Source: Verrucomicrobiia bacterium
GTDB taxonomy: Bacteria; Verrucomicrobiota; Verrucomicrobiia; Limisphaerales; UBA8199
Reading direction: 5' to 3'
Length of the DNA stretch: 64,000 bases
NCBI GenBank assembly: GCA_035946615.1
Contig: DASYZB010000115.1
Location: forward strand, 1-64,000
Of the stretch, positions 14,246-39,592 are shown piece after piece. The position numbers and the translations under genes are program-made. Under the pieces are notes generated by a model. It did not search any database. It was not told the DNA's origin and saw nothing but the letters and a program-made list of their open reading frames with translations. Each line of letters starts with the position of its first letter. The stretch's first letter is position 1.

Positions 14246-16585
14246 ATGATGCCTCTCAAAGCTCCCGAGGGACCCCGCAACCTTCGGGCCCTTCCGACGT
14301 CTTCCTTGGCGTCGGCCCTGGCGCCCCTGGTAAACTGGCAACTACGTTCCCTCACATGCGTCGGAAAGCAATTCCCTCTCCTCCTTTGGAGGAGAGGGTC
14401 AGGGAGAGGAGGCCCTCTGTCTCGAAACTTCTATGTCACAGTACCAGCCCGTCACGGGTGCAGTTCCTGGAGGACACTGGTTGGGCTGGCGCTGGCGTTC
14501 TGTTGCTGGTTGCCTGTCGGGGTCCATGCCGCCGAACAAAACCCCAATGCTGCCTGCCTCGATTGCCACTCGGATAAGACCCTCTACAAGACCAATGCCG
14601 CCGGCAAGGCCATCTGGCTCTTCATAGACGAAGCCAAGTTCTCGCGCGCCATCCACAACACCAACACCTGCGCCAGTTGCCATGCAGATATCACGCCCAA
14701 GCATCCGGATGACAATGTGTCGGCCAAACCGGTTAATTGTGCTGCTTGTCACGCGGAGGAGGGACGGCAATATGCCGCTAGCATTCACGGGGTGAGCCAT
14801 ACACTCGGGGCTTCTGGCGCCGCCAATTGCTGGGATTGCCACGGTTCACACAATATTCTTCCCGCCAAGCACGCCGATTCCCCGGTGTTCAAGTTGAACC
14901 TGCCCAACACCTGCGCCGCTTGTCACACTAACTCCGGCATCACTAAAGAGTACCAGATGAAGTACCCCGAGGCAGCCGCCCAATACATGGATAGCATCCA
15001 TGGCCGGGCGTTGCTGAAGATGGGCCTGATTGTCGCTCCTTCCTGCAACGATTGTCATGGGGTGCATGACATCAAACGGGCTGTCGATCGTGATTCGCCC
15101 ATCAACCAGGCCAACGTCGCCAGGACCTGCGGCAAGTGCCACGTCAAAGTGGAACGAATCTATAATAACAGCGTTCATGGCCAATTGCTGGCCAAAGGCG
15201 ATAAACGCGGGCCGGTCTGCACAGATTGCCATACGGCGCACCAGGTCGAGAACCCGCAGAACGGGCATTTTAAAATGATCAGCGACCAGCGCTGTGGCCG
15301 CTGCCACGAGGATCGCCTGGCGCATTATCGCGACACTTACCACGGCAAGGCCATGGCCCTGGGCAAACCGAACGCCGCCTCGGATGTGGCCGCCTGCTAC
15401 GATTGCCATGGCCATCACGATGTCCTGCCGGCAGCCAACCCGCTCTCCCGCTTGTCCCGGACGAATATCCTGGCCACTTGCCAGCAATGTCACCCTGCGG
15501 CCACTATCGGCTTTACACTCTATAAGCCCCATGCCAATCCGCTGGATGGCAAGAACTACCCGCTGCTTCATCTGACATTCCTGTCCATGACCTCTTTGTT
15601 GGTCGGCGTGTTCGTCTTCTTTGGCGCGCACACGGGGGCCTGGCTGTTTCGGGCCGGATATTTATACCTGCACGATTCAAAGGCATTTCGCGAGGCCAAG
15701 ATCAGCTCGCAAGAGGGAGGCGAATGGTTCACCCGCTTTGCGCCTTTCGAGCGCTTCCTCCATTTCCTGGTAGTCACCAGCTTTCTCCTCCTGGTCATTA
15801 CCGGCATGCCCCTGAAGTTCTATTACGCAGACTGGGCCAAGACGATGTTCAACATCATCGGCGGCGCCGAAACGGCCCGCGCCCTGCACCGCCTCGGGGC
15901 GCTGGTGACTTTCCTCTACTTTGGACTCCATTTGAGCGCGCTGTTGGCCAGGTCCTGGAACGGGCGCAAACATATCCGCGACCCGCAGACTGGCCAATGG
16001 AGTCTCAAACGGCTTTGGCATACGGTCTTTGGCCCCGATTCCATGATGCCGACCCTGCAGGATTGGCGCGATTTCGTCGCCCACAACCGCTGGTTCTTCG
16101 GCAAAGGACCTCGCCCCCAGTTTGATCGCTGGACTTATTGGGAGAAGTTCGATTACTTCGCCGTTTTTTGGGGCGTGCTCATCATCGGCTCGTCAGGGCT
16201 TATCATGTGGTTTCCGACCTTCTTCACCCGGTTTCTGCCGGGATGGATTATTAACATTGCCTTAATCATCCACTCCGACGAAGCCCTGCTGGCTGCGGGA
16301 TTTATTTTCTCGATCCACTTCTTCAACACCCATTTCCGCATCGAGAAGTTCCCCATGGACACCGTTATCTTCTCTGGCCGCGTCTCTAAAAACGAAATGC
16401 TTCATGAACGCAAACGGTGGTATGACCGGCTCGTCGCCGAAGGGCATCTTGATGACTTCCGCATCCGGGACGAATGGCTGCGCTGGAAAAGCATCGCTCG
16501 GACCTTCGGCTACTTCTTCTTCGGGCTGGGAGTGATTTTGCTCGTCCTCATCCTCTACGCGATGGTGACGCGCCTGACGCACTAA
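14246..16585 (+). CDS. 11-heme cytochrome c / b-type cytochrome fusion (CbcL-like)
   Basis: A very large electron-transfer protein. Eleven CX2CH motifs (CLDCH, CASCH, CAACH, CWDCH, CAACH, CNDCH, CGKCH, CTDCH, CGRCH, CYDCH, CQQCH) span roughly 14560-15500. They are followed by an integral b-type cytochrome domain with helices such as FLHFLVVTSFLLLVITGMPL and LHRLGALVTFLYFGLHL, whose His residues can bind two b hemes. This architecture matches Geobacter CbcL (nonaheme c plus HydC/FdnI-like b), a quinol oxidase used with low-potential acceptors. The start is unsure: ATG 14246 gives 779 aa but reads through a perfect hairpin (14374-14398) before a signal-like hydrophobic stretch ending GVHA near 14535. 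No ATG or GTG lies between, so a rare start or a one-base indel is possible. Confidence 0.85.
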   Translation: MMPLKAPEGPRNLRALPTSSLASALAPLVNWQLRSLTCVGKQFPLLLWRRGSGRGGPLSRNFYVTVPARHGCSSWRTLVGLALAFCCWLPVGVHAAEQNPNAACLDCHSDKTLYKTNAAGKAIWLFIDEAKFSRAIHNTNTCASCHADITPKHPDDNVSAKPVNCAACHAEEGRQYAASIHGVSHTLGASGAANCWDCHGSHNILPAKHADSPVFKLNLPNTCAACHTNSGITKEYQMKYPEAAAQYMDSIHGRALLKMGLIVAPSCNDCHGVHDIKRAVDRDSPINQANVARTCGKCHVKVERIYNNSVHGQLLAKGDKRGPVCTDCHTAHQVENPQNGHFKMISDQRCGRCHEDRLAHYRDTYHGKAMALGKPNAASDVAACYDCHGHHDVLPAANPLSRLSRTNILATCQQCHPAATIGFTLYKPHANPLDGKNYPLLHLTFLSMTSLLVGVFVFFGAHTGAWLFRAGYLYLHDSKAFREAKISSQEGGEWFTRFAPFERFLHFLVVTSFLLLVITGMPLKFYYADWAKTMFNIIGGAETARALHRLGALVTFLYFGLHLSALLARSWNGRKHIRDPQTGQWSLKRLWHTVFGPDSMMPTLQDWRDFVAHNRWFFGKGPRPQFDRWTYWEKFDYFAVFWGVLIIGSSGLIMWFPTFFTRFLPGWIINIALIIHSDEALLAAGFIFSIHFFNTHFRIEKFPMDTVIFSGRVSKNEMLHERKRWYDRLVAEGHLDDFRIRDEWLRWKSIARTFGYFFFGLGVILLVLILYAMVTRLTH
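14374..14398. repeat. Perfect 11-bp hairpin repeat (CCCTCTCCTCC type)
   Basis: CCCTCTCCTCC and GGAGGAGAGGG form an 11-bp stem with a TTT loop. A near-identical copy lies at 34441-34465. It falls between the seven-heme gene and the signal-peptide part of the 11-heme gene, suggesting non-coding repeat DNA there. Confidence 0.7.
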
Positions 16586-34246: not shown

Positions 34247-34393
34247 TCAATTCTTTTTTCTTTCCCCAAATGCGCGGCGGACGAAGGGGCCAAGCACCAT
34301 GACCCCAATCGTCGTCGGGAGCCTGAAGAATCGGAAATTCACATAGCTGAACAAAGCCGTGATGGTGATCAGCAACGCGATGATTTGGAGCAT
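34247..34393 (-). pseudogene. N-terminal remnant of a cation:proton antiporter
   Basis: A 48-codon minus-strand frame from ATG 34393 reads MLQIIALLITITALFSYVNF, then RFFRLPTTIGVMVL. That is the typical first helix and LPTTIGVM motif of CPA1/NhaP-type sodium:proton antiporters. After GVMVL the similarity stops and a TGA follows, so about 90% of the gene is gone. It lies downstream of the split TPR gene at the edge of the decayed region. Confidence 0.5.
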
Positions 34394-34440
34394 GGTCAAA
34401 CGGCGCTTCCTGAGTTAAGGCTCAGGGCGGCTCGCCGACC

Positions 34441-34465
34441 CCCTCTCCTGCTTTGGAGGAGAGGG
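34441..34465. repeat. Hairpin repeat (CCCTCTCC type), second copy
   Basis: CCCTCTCCTGC-TTT-GGAGGAGAGGG forms an 11-bp stem with one mismatch and matches the element at 14374-14398. It lies in non-coding DNA. Confidence 0.65.
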
Positions 34466-34613
34466 CGGGAAGAGGATGCCCTTTACCTTCCTCGACATTA
34501 AGGCGCTCGTACTGTGTCGCTGATGTCATACGGGGCCCCTCCGTTGCACTCTCCGCGCAGACGGATTACAATTTGGCATTGACAGTTGACCGAAAACCAT
34601 GAACCCATTCTCT

Positions 34614-34730: not shown

Positions 34731-35150
34731 TTATAGCCCGCCACTTAAGTTCGTCGCGAAAGACTGCCAGATCCCTCTGTCCTACGTTCTCGGGAAGTTT
34801 GGAGACGAGAATTCGAGCCTGCCTGCTTCGAATGGAACCGCGATCGAGCAAATCCAGCCCTGAAAGCTTATTCGCAGGCTCGATTCGGGCGCGGAACTTC
34901 CGCCGCCAGCGGGGGAAAAAGCCGTGGCGCCGCAATTCCAATTCTACCGATGGCCATGCGATGGATGAGGGACATGAAGCATTTGGCCAGGAAATCGAAT
35001 GGAGGCGCCATCGGGTTATGCCTTCCGCCTTCCAGAGTCAGCGCGCTATGGCCGGAGGCCGGTCAAAAGAGCCGGCAGGACCGTTTGCAGCACGAGCGCT
35101 TCAACTCGCTCGGGAGATCCGGCAACTGGCTGAACCCCAGCTTGCAGCGG

Positions 35151-35214
35151 ATGAAGCGCATCGAGGTTGGCCCATTGGGCAGATTCGACATCGTTCCTGG
35201 TTCTTACGCCTATA
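35151..35214 (+). repeat. 64-bp fragment of a DUF123 gene, inverted copy 1
   Basis: It encodes MKRIEVGPLGRFDIVPGSYA-Y, the core beta-strand segment of DUF123 GIY-YIG proteins. It matches the reverse complement of 37857-37920 at 60 of 64 positions, and similarity stops sharply at both ends. Neither flank continues the domain. Confidence 0.7.
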
Positions 35215-35469
35215 AGGTGGTCCCGGTTGCCACTGCGGGGCTAGTGACCGTACTGCCGTCAAGGGTGATCGCGGTTTGGGCCAACAGTCGGCCGTTAATT
35301 GAGGCGCCCGTCGCAAGGCTGATCGCAGTTTGGCACATCACAATCCCCTCGGAGTGAGCGGTCGTTACCAGGGAGACGTCTCCGGCGGATTCGTTTGCGG
35401 CATTGCAAATCGTCGGCGTTGGCAATTGGTCCTCCCTGAAAAGATTCTATTGACAGGATGGCGGAGGAT

Positions 35470-35483
35470 GTGTATATGCACAC
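35470..35483. promoter_or_regulatory. Operator-like site 1 (GTGTATATGCACAC)
   Basis: A 14-bp imperfect palindrome (GTGT..AT..ACAC) 22 bp upstream of the MarR-family start. An identical copy lies at 35968-35981. The likely ligand is the adjacent MarR regulator. Confidence 0.6.
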
Positions 35484-35504
35484 TAGCTGGCTAAGGAACT
35501 GGAC

Positions 35505-35927
35505 ATGGCGGGTATGGAAAACTGCGTGTGCTTCAACCTGCGCTGGGTGGCGCGGGTGGTAACCAAGTTTTTCGACGCCGAACTGCGCCGGCACGGCATT
35601 CGCCCGACACAAACACCCATCTTAAGCGCGCTCGCGGCTAAGTCGGGTTGGTCCATGGACCAACTGAGCGATTGGCTTGGCATGGAACGGACGACGCTTG
35701 TGCGCAATCTCCGCCCATTGGAGCGTGACGGCTTAGTGGAACTGAGCGGCACTGGCCGCGGCGGGAAAGTTAGCCTCTCCCTTACGGCTAAAGGGAAGAA
35801 AGAGCTGGCCGAAGCCATGCCGGCCTGGCGCGCGGCCCAGCAAGCCGCGGTGAAGACCCTCGGCGCGGAACGTTGGTCGGCGATTCTTACCGATCTAGAG
35901 AGGGCGGCGCTTGCTTTGACTAAATGA
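35505..35927 (+). CDS. MarR-family transcriptional regulator
   Basis: A 140-aa winged-helix regulator with ribosome site AAGGAA 7 bp before the ATG. The N-terminal CVC (Cys7 and Cys9, in MENCVCFNLRWVAR) marks a MarR subgroup that may sense oxidants or metals through cysteines. The recognition helix lies in LSDWLGMERTTLVRNLRPLERDG (residues ~55-80), followed by the wing (GRGGKVSLSLTAKG). MarR proteins usually repress neighbouring genes. Identical 14-bp sites before this gene and at the start of the next suggest autoregulation and control of the Fe-S protein. Confidence 0.92.
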   Translation: MAGMENCVCFNLRWVARVVTKFFDAELRRHGIRPTQTPILSALAAKSGWSMDQLSDWLGMERTTLVRNLRPLERDGLVELSGTGRGGKVSLSLTAKGKKELAEAMPAWRAAQQAAVKTLGAERWSAILTDLERAALALTK

Positions 35928-35967
35928 ACTCGAACCTGCCACCGGGAAAAACTATTGAACTCTTGTT

Positions 35968-35981
35968 GTGTATATGCACAC
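35968..35981. promoter_or_regulatory. Operator-like site 2, overlapping the Fe-S gene start
   Basis: Identical 14-bp GTGTATATGCACAC copy. Its internal ATG (35974-35976) is the probable start codon of the Fe-S protein, so a bound regulator would block both RNA polymerase and initiation. Confidence 0.6.
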
Positions 35982-37293
35982 CACTGCGTTAGATTCTCCT
36001 TCTCAGCCCGCAGCGCGGCCGAGAGCTCCTTTGGATGCAGCCTGGCTGCGTGAACTTTGTCTCGCAGCCGGCGCCGATGATGTCGGCTTTGTGGAACTGG
36101 AACGGCCAGCGCTGGCTTCGGAGCGACCCCACATCGAGAGGGCATTTCGCCATGCTCGCAGTCTGGTCAGCTTTGTAGTGCGGATGAACCGGGACAATGT
36201 CCGCAGCCCGGCGCGTTCGGTGGCCAACTCTGAGTTCCATGAGGCGGGCGATGAGGTGAACCACATTGCCCGCAAGGTTACCGCGGCCTTGGAACGCGCT
36301 GGCGTCCGGGCGCTGAATCCGCCGATGGGGTTTCCGATGGAAGCCGACCGTTGGATGACCGAACGAATGTGGTTGGTCGCTCACAAACCCGTTGCGGTGG
36401 CGGCGGGGTTGGGCCGGATGGGGATACACCGGAACGTGATTCATCCGCGCTTCGGGAACTTTGTTCTGCTAGGCACCATTCTAGTCGCGGAAGAAATCAG
36501 CGAGTATTCTCGCGAACTGGGCTATAACCCGTGCCTGGAATGCAAGCTGTGTGTGGCGGCGTGCCCCGTCGGGGCGATTTTGCCGGACGGCGCGTTCAAC
36601 TTTTCGGCCTGTTACACGCACAACTATCGCGAGTTCATGGGCGGCTTTGCGGACTGGGTGGAAACGATCGTCGATAGCCGCAACGGACTGGATTACCGGC
36701 GGCGGGTAAAGGAATCGGAGAGCGTTTCCACCTGGCAGAGTCTTGGCTTTGGCCCGAACTACAAAGCGGCGTATTGCATGGCCGTGTGCCCGGCGGGCGA
36801 GGATGTGATCGGCCCATTCTTAGCGTCGAAAAAGGATTTTCTGGACGATGTGGTACGACCGCTGCAAGCGAAGCAAGAGCCGGTGTATGTGGTTCCTGGT
36901 TCGGACGCGGAAGCCCATGTGCAGAAGCGGCACCCGCACAAGAACGTGCGCCATGTGCGCAATTCGCTGCGGCCGCGGAGTATCGCCGCCCTGTTGAACG
37001 GGATACCCCTCTCTTTCCAACGGCAGGCGGCCGGCACGCTGGGCGCCACCTACCATTTCACCTTCAGAGGAAAGGAAACCACAGAGGCAACCGTGGTCAT
37101 CCGCTCAGGGACGATCACGGTCGAACAGGGATTGAAAGGTCAACCCAACCTCCACGTCATTGCGGACGCCGAAACCTGGCTCGGATTTCTGGCGAAAGAA
37201 AGAAACCTGTTTTGGGCGCTGATCACCCGCAAAATCAGGATCAAAGGAAATCCCAAATGGTTGTTGGCGTTCAGCCGATGTTTTCCTTCGTAA
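35974..37293 (+). CDS. QueG-like 4Fe-4S protein fused to a C-terminal SCP2 domain
   Basis: About 439 aa from ATG 35974; a GTG at 35968 would add two residues. Residues ~20-290 resemble epoxyqueuosine reductase/QueG-type or reductive-dehalogenase-like Fe-S proteins. Clusters are CLECKLCVAACPVGAI and a second Cys set (FSACYTHN, YCMAVCPAG). Residues ~340-439 (YHFTFRGKETTEATVVIRSGTITVE then KIRIKGNPKWLLAFSRCF) match an SCP2 sterol-transfer fold. A lipid-like substrate reduced at the Fe-S (and possibly cobalamin) site is an inference. A DUF302 protein begins 12 bp downstream. Confidence 0.82.
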   Translation: MHTTALDSPSQPAARPRAPLDAAWLRELCLAAGADDVGFVELERPALASERPHIERAFRHARSLVSFVVRMNRDNVRSPARSVANSEFHEAGDEVNHIARKVTAALERAGVRALNPPMGFPMEADRWMTERMWLVAHKPVAVAAGLGRMGIHRNVIHPRFGNFVLLGTILVAEEISEYSRELGYNPCLECKLCVAACPVGAILPDGAFNFSACYTHNYREFMGGFADWVETIVDSRNGLDYRRRVKESESVSTWQSLGFGPNYKAAYCMAVCPAGEDVIGPFLASKKDFLDDVVRPLQAKQEPVYVVPGSDAEAHVQKRHPHKNVRHVRNSLRPRSIAALLNGIPLSFQRQAAGTLGATYHFTFRGKETTEATVVIRSGTITVEQGLKGQPNLHVIADAETWLGFLAKERNLFWALITRKIRIKGNPKWLLAFSRCFPS

Positions 37294-37305
37294 ACGAAAG
37301 GCACA

Positions 37306-37818
37306 ATGAACTCATCGGCTCTCCACCCTGCAAACCATCCATTCGCGTCCAACCGGATTGAATGGCGGTTGAATCAACCGTTCGCGAAAAGCCTGCAACG
37401 GCTGCTTACGATTCTGGGAAAGCCGCACCCGCTCCGGCTTTTGGTCTATGCCAGACTGGGGGGAAAGGCAGGATTGGAGCACTACCTGGAAAAGGTCGGT
37501 GGCGAATTGGGATTAATGATTCTGGGGACCGTTCGTCACGGCTTCATCATGTCAGCCTTGAACGGGCCAAGCCATGCACAAATGTTCCTCATTGGAAACC
37601 CGCTCACGGCGGTCGGCCTAATGCGGGAGTTCAAACAGGCGGGAGTCTATGCGCCGATGCGGGTCATGTTTCATGATGACGGAATGGATCGGACCATTAT
37701 CACCTACGACGCGCCATCAAAGGTCTTTGGCCAGTTTGATTCGCCTCAATTCCTGAATACTGGGGAAATGCTCGAACGGAAGTTGGAAGCGCTGGTTCGA
37801 GAGATTGCGATATCGTAA
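37306..37818 (+). CDS. DUF302-domain protein
   Basis: A 170-aa protein without a clear signal. The C-terminal ~100 residues (AQMFLIGNPLTAVGLMREFKQAG, then APMRVMFHDDGMDRTIITYDAP) fit the DUF302 (TT1751-like) fold, a small alpha/beta domain of unknown function. The N-terminal ~60 residues are helical and basic. It starts 12 bp after the QueG-like/SCP2 gene and probably forms an operon with it under MarR control. Confidence 0.75.
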   Translation: MNSSALHPANHPFASNRIEWRLNQPFAKSLQRLLTILGKPHPLRLLVYARLGGKAGLEHYLEKVGGELGLMILGTVRHGFIMSALNGPSHAQMFLIGNPLTAVGLMREFKQAGVYAPMRVMFHDDGMDRTIITYDAPSKVFGQFDSPQFLNTGEMLERKLEALVREIAIS

Positions 37819-37820
37819 AG

Positions 37821-38004
37821 GATCTATCGAGCCCGCCGGCTCCGAAAGCGCTCCCATATAGGCGTAAGAACCAGGAACGATGTCAAATTCGCCCACTGGG
37901 CCAACCTCGATGCGCTTCATCTGGGGCACGGACGCAATCAAGACGTACGTGCCATTCTCGTCTGGGAGGTCCATTCCCGTCACCCGGAGGTGTTGCCGTT
38001 CCAA
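37821..38004 (-). pseudogene. Truncated DUF123 GIY-YIG endonuclease-like gene
   Basis: The minus-strand frame begins near 38004 and reads DENGTYVLIASVPQ, then MKRIEVGPVGEFDIVPGSYA and YMGAL. This is the N-terminal part of the DUF123 family (GTYVLI...IEVGRLG.F...G.YAYVGSA). The rest of the domain, including the HWHIDYL end, is missing. The frame continues into antisense sequence of the DUF302 gene down to 37717. The segment 37857-37920 is the inverted partner of 35151-35214. Confidence 0.65.
37857..37920 (-). repeat. 64-bp DUF123 fragment, inverted copy 2
   Basis: Reverse-complement match to 35151-35214 (60 of 64 positions). Together the two copies bracket the MarR / QueG-SCP2 / DUF302 module in opposite orientation. 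Confidence 0.7.
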
Positions 38005-38025
38005 CCCGCTGAAGCCGAAGGAAAT

Positions 38026-38595
38026 CTAGACCCTTAGCCAGCCACGGAACGCCCTGGCGCTATAGTAAGACTGGGCGCCGTTGTGACCCACGAAGACTCG
38101 GCCATAGCGGCGATCGCAATAGAGCGCGCCGCCGAGTTTTCTGATATCAGCAGGTGTCTTCACCCAACTTGACGTCTTGGTATCGAAATCTCCAAAACCC
38201 TGCAGCTCCAGATATTGTTCTTCTGTTAAAAGTTCAATGCCCATGGCCGCTGCCATATCCATGGCGGTATTCTCGGGTTTATGTTCCTTCCTGGATTCCA
38301 GCCCTTCACGGTCGTAACAAACACTGGTGCGGCCTTTAGGACTCTCCGGCGAACAATCATAGAAAACGTATTCGCCCGTCTGTTTATCATGGTCCACAAT
38401 ATCCGGCTCACCGCCGGTTCTTTCCATTTCATTGAGCGACCACAGTTTCTCAGTGTTGGCTTCCAGCCGTGCTCGCACTTTAGCCCATTCAAGACCCTTG
38501 TGGCGGTTCATATTTTTCTCGAACCTCGCTTTCAACGCTGTGAGCAGCGCTTCACGTTGTTTTGGGGATAACTCCTTTTTATTGCTCTTATTCAT
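38026..38595 (-). CDS. DUF4256-domain protein
   Basis: A 189-aa soluble protein. It has the complete DUF4256 pattern: a basic N-terminus (LSPKQREALLTALKARFEKNMNRH), LEWAKVRARLEANTEKLWSLNEM, ERTGGEPDIV, FYDCSPESPKGRTSVCYD and a C-terminal YYSARAFRGWLRV. The family has no known enzymatic role. It appears intact although surrounded by gene fragments, and there is no operon partner. Confidence 0.85.
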   Translation of the reverse strand: MNKSNKKELSPKQREALLTALKARFEKNMNRHKGLEWAKVRARLEANTEKLWSLNEMERTGGEPDIVDHDKQTGEYVFYDCSPESPKGRTSVCYDREGLESRKEHKPENTAMDMAAAMGIELLTEEQYLELQGFGDFDTKTSSWVKTPADIRKLGGALYCDRRYGRVFVGHNGAQSYYSARAFRGWLRV

Positions 38596-38938
38596 AAATG
38601 ACAGTTCGAGTATGCTTTTTCATCCCGTCGATTTTGGTTTCAGCTTAGCAGCCTAGGAACGACTGGTAAATTGCGCGATTTTCGCATTCTGCATTCTGCA
38701 CCTATTAGTCTTCCGCCCTTTCCCTGTGGGCCGCCATTTTGACGAGCTTTTGGTCGAACTGGCCCAGGACGGTCACGAGGTCCTTTTGAGCGGCCATGCG
38801 ATCCAGCGGTCTGTTTGAGGCGCTGATTGTTGACGGCAGTTTCATCACTGCCAAATCCGGCAATATCGGGTTGTCTGAGGCGTTTGTTCTTTGTTGATAG
38901 GCGGGCTATGTTCGGCATGAAAGTCATTTTCGAAACGC
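38596..38938. other. Intergenic region with possible gene remnants
   Basis: A 343-bp gap. Two short coding-like remnants overlap or abut here. A minus-strand 30-codon frame (38705-38797) reads DLVTVLGQFDQKLVKMAAHR. A plus-strand stretch around 38800-38890 reads SGLFEALIVDGSFITAKSGN, similar to DUF6932-type nucleotidyltransferases. Neither is a full gene. Confidence 0.35.
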
Positions 38939-39442
38939 ATGAGACCTTACGTCCTCTGTCATATGTGCACCACGGTGGACGGCAGGATTCTGGGCCACCG
39001 CTGGGGAAAGCTGCCGGGGTACAAGCACGAGAGCGATTTATTCGAAACGACAGCAGCCAGTTTCGGCATCGGAGCATGGCTCGTTGGCACGACCACGATG
39101 GACGAATTTGACGGGCGCAAAATAAAATTGCCTCGCGCGCCGAAAGGATTTGTCCGGCGTGACCATGTCGCAAAGCCGAACGCGAAGCGGCTGGCGATCG
39201 GCGCGGATGCGAAAGGCGTGCTGCGGTTCCAGGAAAACGAGGTCGGTGGGGACCACGTCGTGCTCCTCGTGACCGAGCGCGTGGGCAACGATTAGCTCTC
39301 GCATTTGCAGGCCGCTGGTGTTTCGTACATCTTTTGCGGAGAAAGAGAGGTAAACCTGCATATGGCGCTTTGGAAATTGGCGTCGGTTTTCAAGTTGCGA
39401 AAATTGATGCTGCAAGGCGGCGGAAAATTCAATGGCGCAATG
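38939..39442 (+). pseudogene. RibD C-terminal-domain / dihydrofolate reductase-like pseudogene
   Basis: Begins MRPYVLCHMCTTVDGRIL, the usual start of the RibD_C/DHFR-like family. An in-frame TAG at 39293-39295 interrupts the gene after ERVGND; the same frame then continues LSHLQAAGVSYIFCGEREVN and KLMLQGGGKFNGAM, which is still family-like (a Tyr codon would be expected at the stop). After GAM (39442) similarity ends, so the final third is missing too. Expressed alone, the first 118 residues would lack much of the NADPH-binding fold. The truncation point is 75 bp from the tRNA-Lys gene. Confidence 0.75.
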
Positions 39443-39516: not shown

Positions 39517-39592
39517 TGGTGGGTTGGCTGGGACTCGAACCCAGGACCAACGGCTTAAAAGGCCGCTGCTCTACCGACTGAGCTACCAACCC
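39517..39592 (-). tRNA. tRNA-Lys (anticodon TTT), CCA encoded
   Basis: The minus strand reads GGGTTGG (acceptor), TAGCTCAGTCGGTAGAGCA (D arm), the anticodon loop CTTTTAA with TTT, a TTCGAGTC T-loop and CCAACCC-A. Acceptor stem, D, anticodon and T arms all pair. CCA at 39517-39519 is genome-encoded. Confidence 0.97.

Follow-up and report, generated by a model that had tools for sequence, protein, structure and literature searches.

A short inverted repeat around a MarR/QueG-like-SCP2 operon is probably a scar of gene decay

Results

Two inverted copies from one decayed DUF123 gene

Two short inverted segments that surround a MarR and QueG-like gene pair in this genome are leftovers of one decayed DUF123 gene rather than the termini of a mobile cassette, and the inverted repeat that they form is an ordinary decay scar, not a functional feature. 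Our analysis centered on a window of 64,000 nucleotides, which comprises bases 1-64000 of a 103-kb contig in a draft genome of 161 contigs (5.6 Mb, 96% complete). Positions 35150-35217 on the plus strand are identical to positions 37854-37921 on the minus strand at 63 of 68 bases, with a longest exact run of 28 bp. For the slightly shorter pair first described, 35151-35214 against the reverse complement of 37857-37920, recomputation returned the same 60 of 64 identities, and a repeat finder extended the inverted match to 75 nt at 89%. When the left copy was searched against all 5.6 Mb of the genome, its match to the right copy had E = 3.9e-22, far beyond chance. A third copy of the segment was not found anywhere in that genome. 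Between the two copies are genes for a MarR-family regulator, a QueG-like protein fused to an SCP2 domain, and a DUF302 protein, as the original prediction had named them.

The right copy (37854-37921) is an interior part of a 180-bp stub of the 5' end of a DUF123 gene (37828-38007, minus strand). This stub is 79-81% identical to the intact DUF123 genes of two members of the same family, G011 and G004, which bears out the assignment of the segments to DUF123. It carries a 1-bp deletion relative to both genes and aligns to them without interruption through position 37921, where the repeat was supposed to end on its outer side. The stub starts ~10 bp beyond the stop codon of the DUF302 gene, and an intact DUF4256 gene is found on its other side (38026-38595, minus strand; PF14066, E 4e-90). 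DUF123 and DUF4256 are on separate contigs in G011, and likewise in G004. A DUF123 profile search of the genome gave no other match, in a type of search that also missed the truncated stubs and that other short remnants may therefore escape. A literature search pairing DUF123 with GIY-YIG found no paper.

The left copy belongs to a DUF123 scrap at 35146-35217 (plus strand, core 35150-35213) with ~70-78% identity to the DUF123 genes of relatives. Similarity ends abruptly here, in agreement with the sharp edges reported at the outset, and the outer and inner flanks both match other genes. The two copies differ from each other at 4 of 65 aligned bases, against 16 or more between either copy and any of the relatives; they also have TATA in common at a place where all relatives have TACG. 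Being closer to each other than to any relative, the copies represent a local duplicate that is younger than the split from other genera. At one of the differences it is the left copy that has preserved the relatives' leucine codon; at two more, the bases shared with G011 and G004 are those of the right copy. Since each copy matches the relatives at different sites, neither is simply the parent of the other in its present form.

A graveyard of gene scraps

The region from 34.7 to 38.9 kb is a gene graveyard, in which scraps of at least four lost genes are joined end to end. At least six scraps of four genes lie within these ~4 kb with working genes between them, and two of the genes are present in two pieces each. 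Several truncated genes have no intact copy here and have intact orthologues in relatives, the pattern by which a pseudogene graveyard is recognized; in G011, DUF123, rtcA, and rtcB are all intact open frames.

Read from the left, the mosaic begins with a frameshifted internal fragment of rtcA, the RNA 3'-terminal phosphate cyclase gene (34735-35098, minus strand). These ~360 bp have 84% DNA identity to G011:C78:30945-31305 and match nt 488-848 of the 1233-nt stop-to-stop frame of rtcA in that genome. Abutting it is an internal scrap of the RNA ligase gene rtcB (35097-35145, minus strand), which is 89% identical over 47 bp to G011:C78:33465-33511 (nt 790-836 of a 1413-nt stop-to-stop frame) and 84-92% identical to rtcB of G008 and G012, in matches at the DNA level only, as 47 bp is below the sensitivity of a protein search. 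The rtcA and rtcB scraps overlap by ~2 bp in the window, and their matching points are 2.16 kb apart in G011. The left DUF123 scrap directly follows the rtcB scrap and is itself directly followed by a 176-bp C-terminal fragment of an ice-binding-like gene (35214-35389, minus strand; PF11999, E 6e-11; 76% DNA identity to G012:C251). Another piece of rtcB, the last 93 nt of the gene (38706-38798, minus strand; aligned to nt 1320-1412 of G011 rtcB), is located to the right of DUF4256, and the two rtcB pieces do not follow the order of the intact gene. A protein search of the genome for rtcB gave this fragment alone. Beyond these scraps, no rtcA, rtcB, or PF11999 sequence turned up in searches of the genome, which is 96% complete. 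By eye, the junctions between scraps share at most a few bases.

The rtc genes are arranged differently among the relatives. G011 has an intact cluster of rtcB, a zeta-toxin-like ATPase gene, and rtcA (locus L138, 8561-12301), and in G012 (L141) rtcB and rtcA are adjacent without the ATPase gene.

Sharp-edged stubs of lost genes standing side by side between working genes are likewise a feature of bacterial pseudogene clusters and deletion-scarred intergenic regions. The present case differs from such clusters in the number of pieces, with six or more scraps from four genes in ~4 kb and two genes each in two pieces.

Several other elements were observed around the mosaic. Just outside it, at 34439-34524, is a palindromic repeat (CCCTCTCCTCCTTTGGAGGAGAGGG...GGGGAGAGGAGG) that is dispersed through the genome in at least 26 other copies, for example at 14374-14416 and on contigs C12, C41, C103, C117, and C132, and that looks like a REP-type intergenic hairpin family. 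Two short frames, 38939-39295 and 34247-34399, appear by eye to be truncated genes resembling a reductase and an antiporter N-terminus, respectively. Neither had a Pfam match at E 0.01, and 38939-39295 had no match among solved structures. A tRNA-Lys (TTT) gene is found close to the right of the mosaic (39517-39592, minus strand).

The MarR/QueG-like-SCP2 operon

The regulator gene (35505-35927, plus strand) encodes a MarR-family protein that scores 26.9 bits against PF12802, just below the cut-off, and is 60-69% identical to regulators beside QueG-SCP2 genes of Verrucomicrobia. The next gene (35968-37293, plus strand) encodes a QueG-like Fe-S protein fused to an SCP2 domain, with SCP2 above its cut-off and Fer4_16 below, and is 60-82% identical to the proteins at 80 other loci. 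The name QueG-like denotes sequence similarity only, the match to TIGR00276 being weak and far below the equivalog cut-off. MarR and QueG-like/SCP2 recur as a conserved pair across Verrucomicrobia, Planctomycetes, Acidobacteria, Nostocales, and Nitrospirae. The DUF302 gene (37306-37818, plus strand; PF03625 above cut-off) follows, and DUF302 had no match at the other 80 QueG-SCP2 loci.

A palindrome, GTGTATATGCACAC, is found upstream of marR at 35470-35483 as a putative MarR operator, with an exact second copy at the start of queG (35968-35981). Similar palindromes occupy corresponding places in many Verrucomicrobia loci, and DNA similarity to those loci runs from the palindrome near 35470 to near the queG stop codon. 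The palindrome pair probably represents two MarR operators. The order of regulator and enzyme is the same as in MarR/QueG-like-SCP2 operons elsewhere, and the palindromes resemble those of the Verrucomicrobia loci. The operon differs in that DUF302 follows here, whereas several Verrucomicrobia have an SDR-like gene (named by eye) between marR and queG-SCP2 (L038, 3794-4618; L040, 4126-5004; L043, 4175-4999); this gene is missing here.

At a threshold of E 1e-60, a search of 39 other relatives, 12 of them from the same family, gave no match to the QueG-SCP2 protein, which suggests horizontal acquisition or repeated loss. The MarR/QueG-SCP2 operon has probably been acquired by, or retained in, a neighborhood in decay. 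Three plasmids carry a QueG-SCP2 homologue at 59% identity, and none was found in the phages searched. An origin as plasmid or phage cargo was considered and rejected on this count, a 59% homologue on three plasmids and none on phage being all that was found. A bracket conserved around QueG-SCP2 genes was likewise rejected, as no DUF123 sequence is present at any of the 80 other loci. A few of these loci do have unrelated inverted repeats, some of which span the gene, and none of these repeats derives from DUF123.

Discussion

We lean toward a history in which this region is a graveyard of deletions and illegitimate joins, with one 68-bp inverted duplicate of DUF123 and an operon between the stubs. 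As pieced together from the scraps, the former neighborhood would have included rtcB-rtcA together with a DUF123 gene and a gene of the ice-binding-like type. It may then have been cut down to abutting scraps of ~47-360 bp through a series of deletions and illegitimate joins. In the course of this decay a 68-bp piece of the local DUF123 gene would have been duplicated in inverted orientation, presumably by capture or copying where the DNA had broken, and joined in between the scraps of rtcB and PF11999, its source staying on the right as the 180-bp 5' stub. MarR/QueG-SCP2, with its own probable operators, would be a working unit acquired or retained between the stubs. Against this account, the out-of-order 3' end of rtcB calls for a duplication or transposition besides deletions, and the genome is a draft of 161 contigs.

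Ku-dependent end joining is a plausible machinery for the joins. The genome encodes two Ku genes (G000:C138:7961-8503 and G000:C41:25863-26408), so end joining may be available to this organism, and the joints show little or no homology, as in bacterial Ku/LigD end joining. In the part of a study of Rhizobium etli, Mycobacterium smegmatis, and Sinorhizobium meliloti that we consulted (PMC10932983), the sequenced end-joining products comprised numerous small deletions alongside larger ones in varying proportion, and filler made of genomic scraps was not among the events described. The present case differs from those deletions of various sizes in its 68-bp genomic copy, for which capture is proposed. 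We suggest tentatively, as a possibility short of an even chance, that end joining has left a natural trace in the left copy, a short genomic piece having been copied or captured as filler between two broken ends, with its source still 2.6 kb away.

The strongest competing explanation accepts the same graveyard and takes the left copy to be all that is left of another complete DUF123 gene in inverted orientation, a segmental duplicate trimmed from both sides by deletions. That rtcB is also in two fragments, in an order suggestive of a duplicated segment, speaks for this explanation, and an identity of 93% over a mere 68 bp would fit a recent duplicate cut by deletion. However, DUF123 homology stops after ~68 bp on either side, where the flanks are other genes, and the rtcB pieces are direct while the DUF123 pieces are inverted, so that one duplication cannot explain both. 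We regard a trimmed second gene as rather unlikely, if deserving of serious weight.

An inversion with staggered breaks in DUF123 could have left short inverted duplicates at both breakpoints, a mechanism with precedent in Drosophila (PMC5080602), where short inverted duplicates likewise stand at two places. It predicts that DUF123 should continue inward from the left copy. Here the gene continues inward at the right copy instead, and the inward continuation of a broken gene at the opposite breakpoint that marks the Drosophila inversions is lacking. When the interval is flipped in silico, ~29 bp of DUF123 move leftward and no gene is restored, so that a second inversion would be needed. A simple inversion, an inversion event being one of the options in the original prediction, fails on the same result, and a staggered-break inversion is improbable.

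Slightly less probable still is an error of assembly or binning that joined unrelated pieces. The draft is indeed fragmented into 161 contigs, but the copies share no exact run beyond 28 bp, a length at which the usual assembly k-mers would not be confused; the scraps are also similar in base composition and the contig is 103 kb long.

Under another proposal, MarR-QueG-DUF302 would be the cargo of a mobile cassette and the 64-68-bp copies its terminal inverted repeats; we consider this very improbable. QueG-SCP2 was indeed not found in the 39 relatives searched, occurs on a few plasmids, and is bracketed by the two copies. Against this, the right copy is interior to an unbroken, longer DUF123 stub, the putative element itself contains a scrap of another gene, DUF123 is absent from the 80 other QueG-SCP2 loci, and the segment has no further copy in the genome. 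No target-site duplication was found, either as a 3-12 nt direct repeat abutting the edges or as one of 6-13 nt within 8 nt of the edges. The empty site looked for in related genomes did not appear either: in a family-wide DNA comparison, the flanks are joined in no family member.

Gene conversion homogenizing 64 bp between two GIY-YIG remnants would account for the sharp edges and the high identity, but is scarcely credible, as the left copy is flanked by pieces of rtcB and PF11999 and not by a longer, diverged DUF123 remnant. Insertion of the operon into a DUF123 gene was rejected as well, because the missing 3' part of the gene is not on the left, and the piece that is there is inverted and duplicates sequence still present on the right.

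Of the original prediction, the DUF123 fragments and the gene names stand, and the notion that the segments delimit a module does not. Simple gene decay, which that prediction had named as the outcome opposed to its own reading, is close to what is found, except that the intact DUF123 genes of relatives do not flank the module. Nothing indicates that the 68-bp copies move, invert, or regulate the operon.

Decay can thus produce, as a by-product, an inverted repeat that stands out around a neat operon. If the left copy was indeed captured, the region would be a legible case of illegitimate joining in a lineage that carries two Ku genes, with scars that are datable against relatives.
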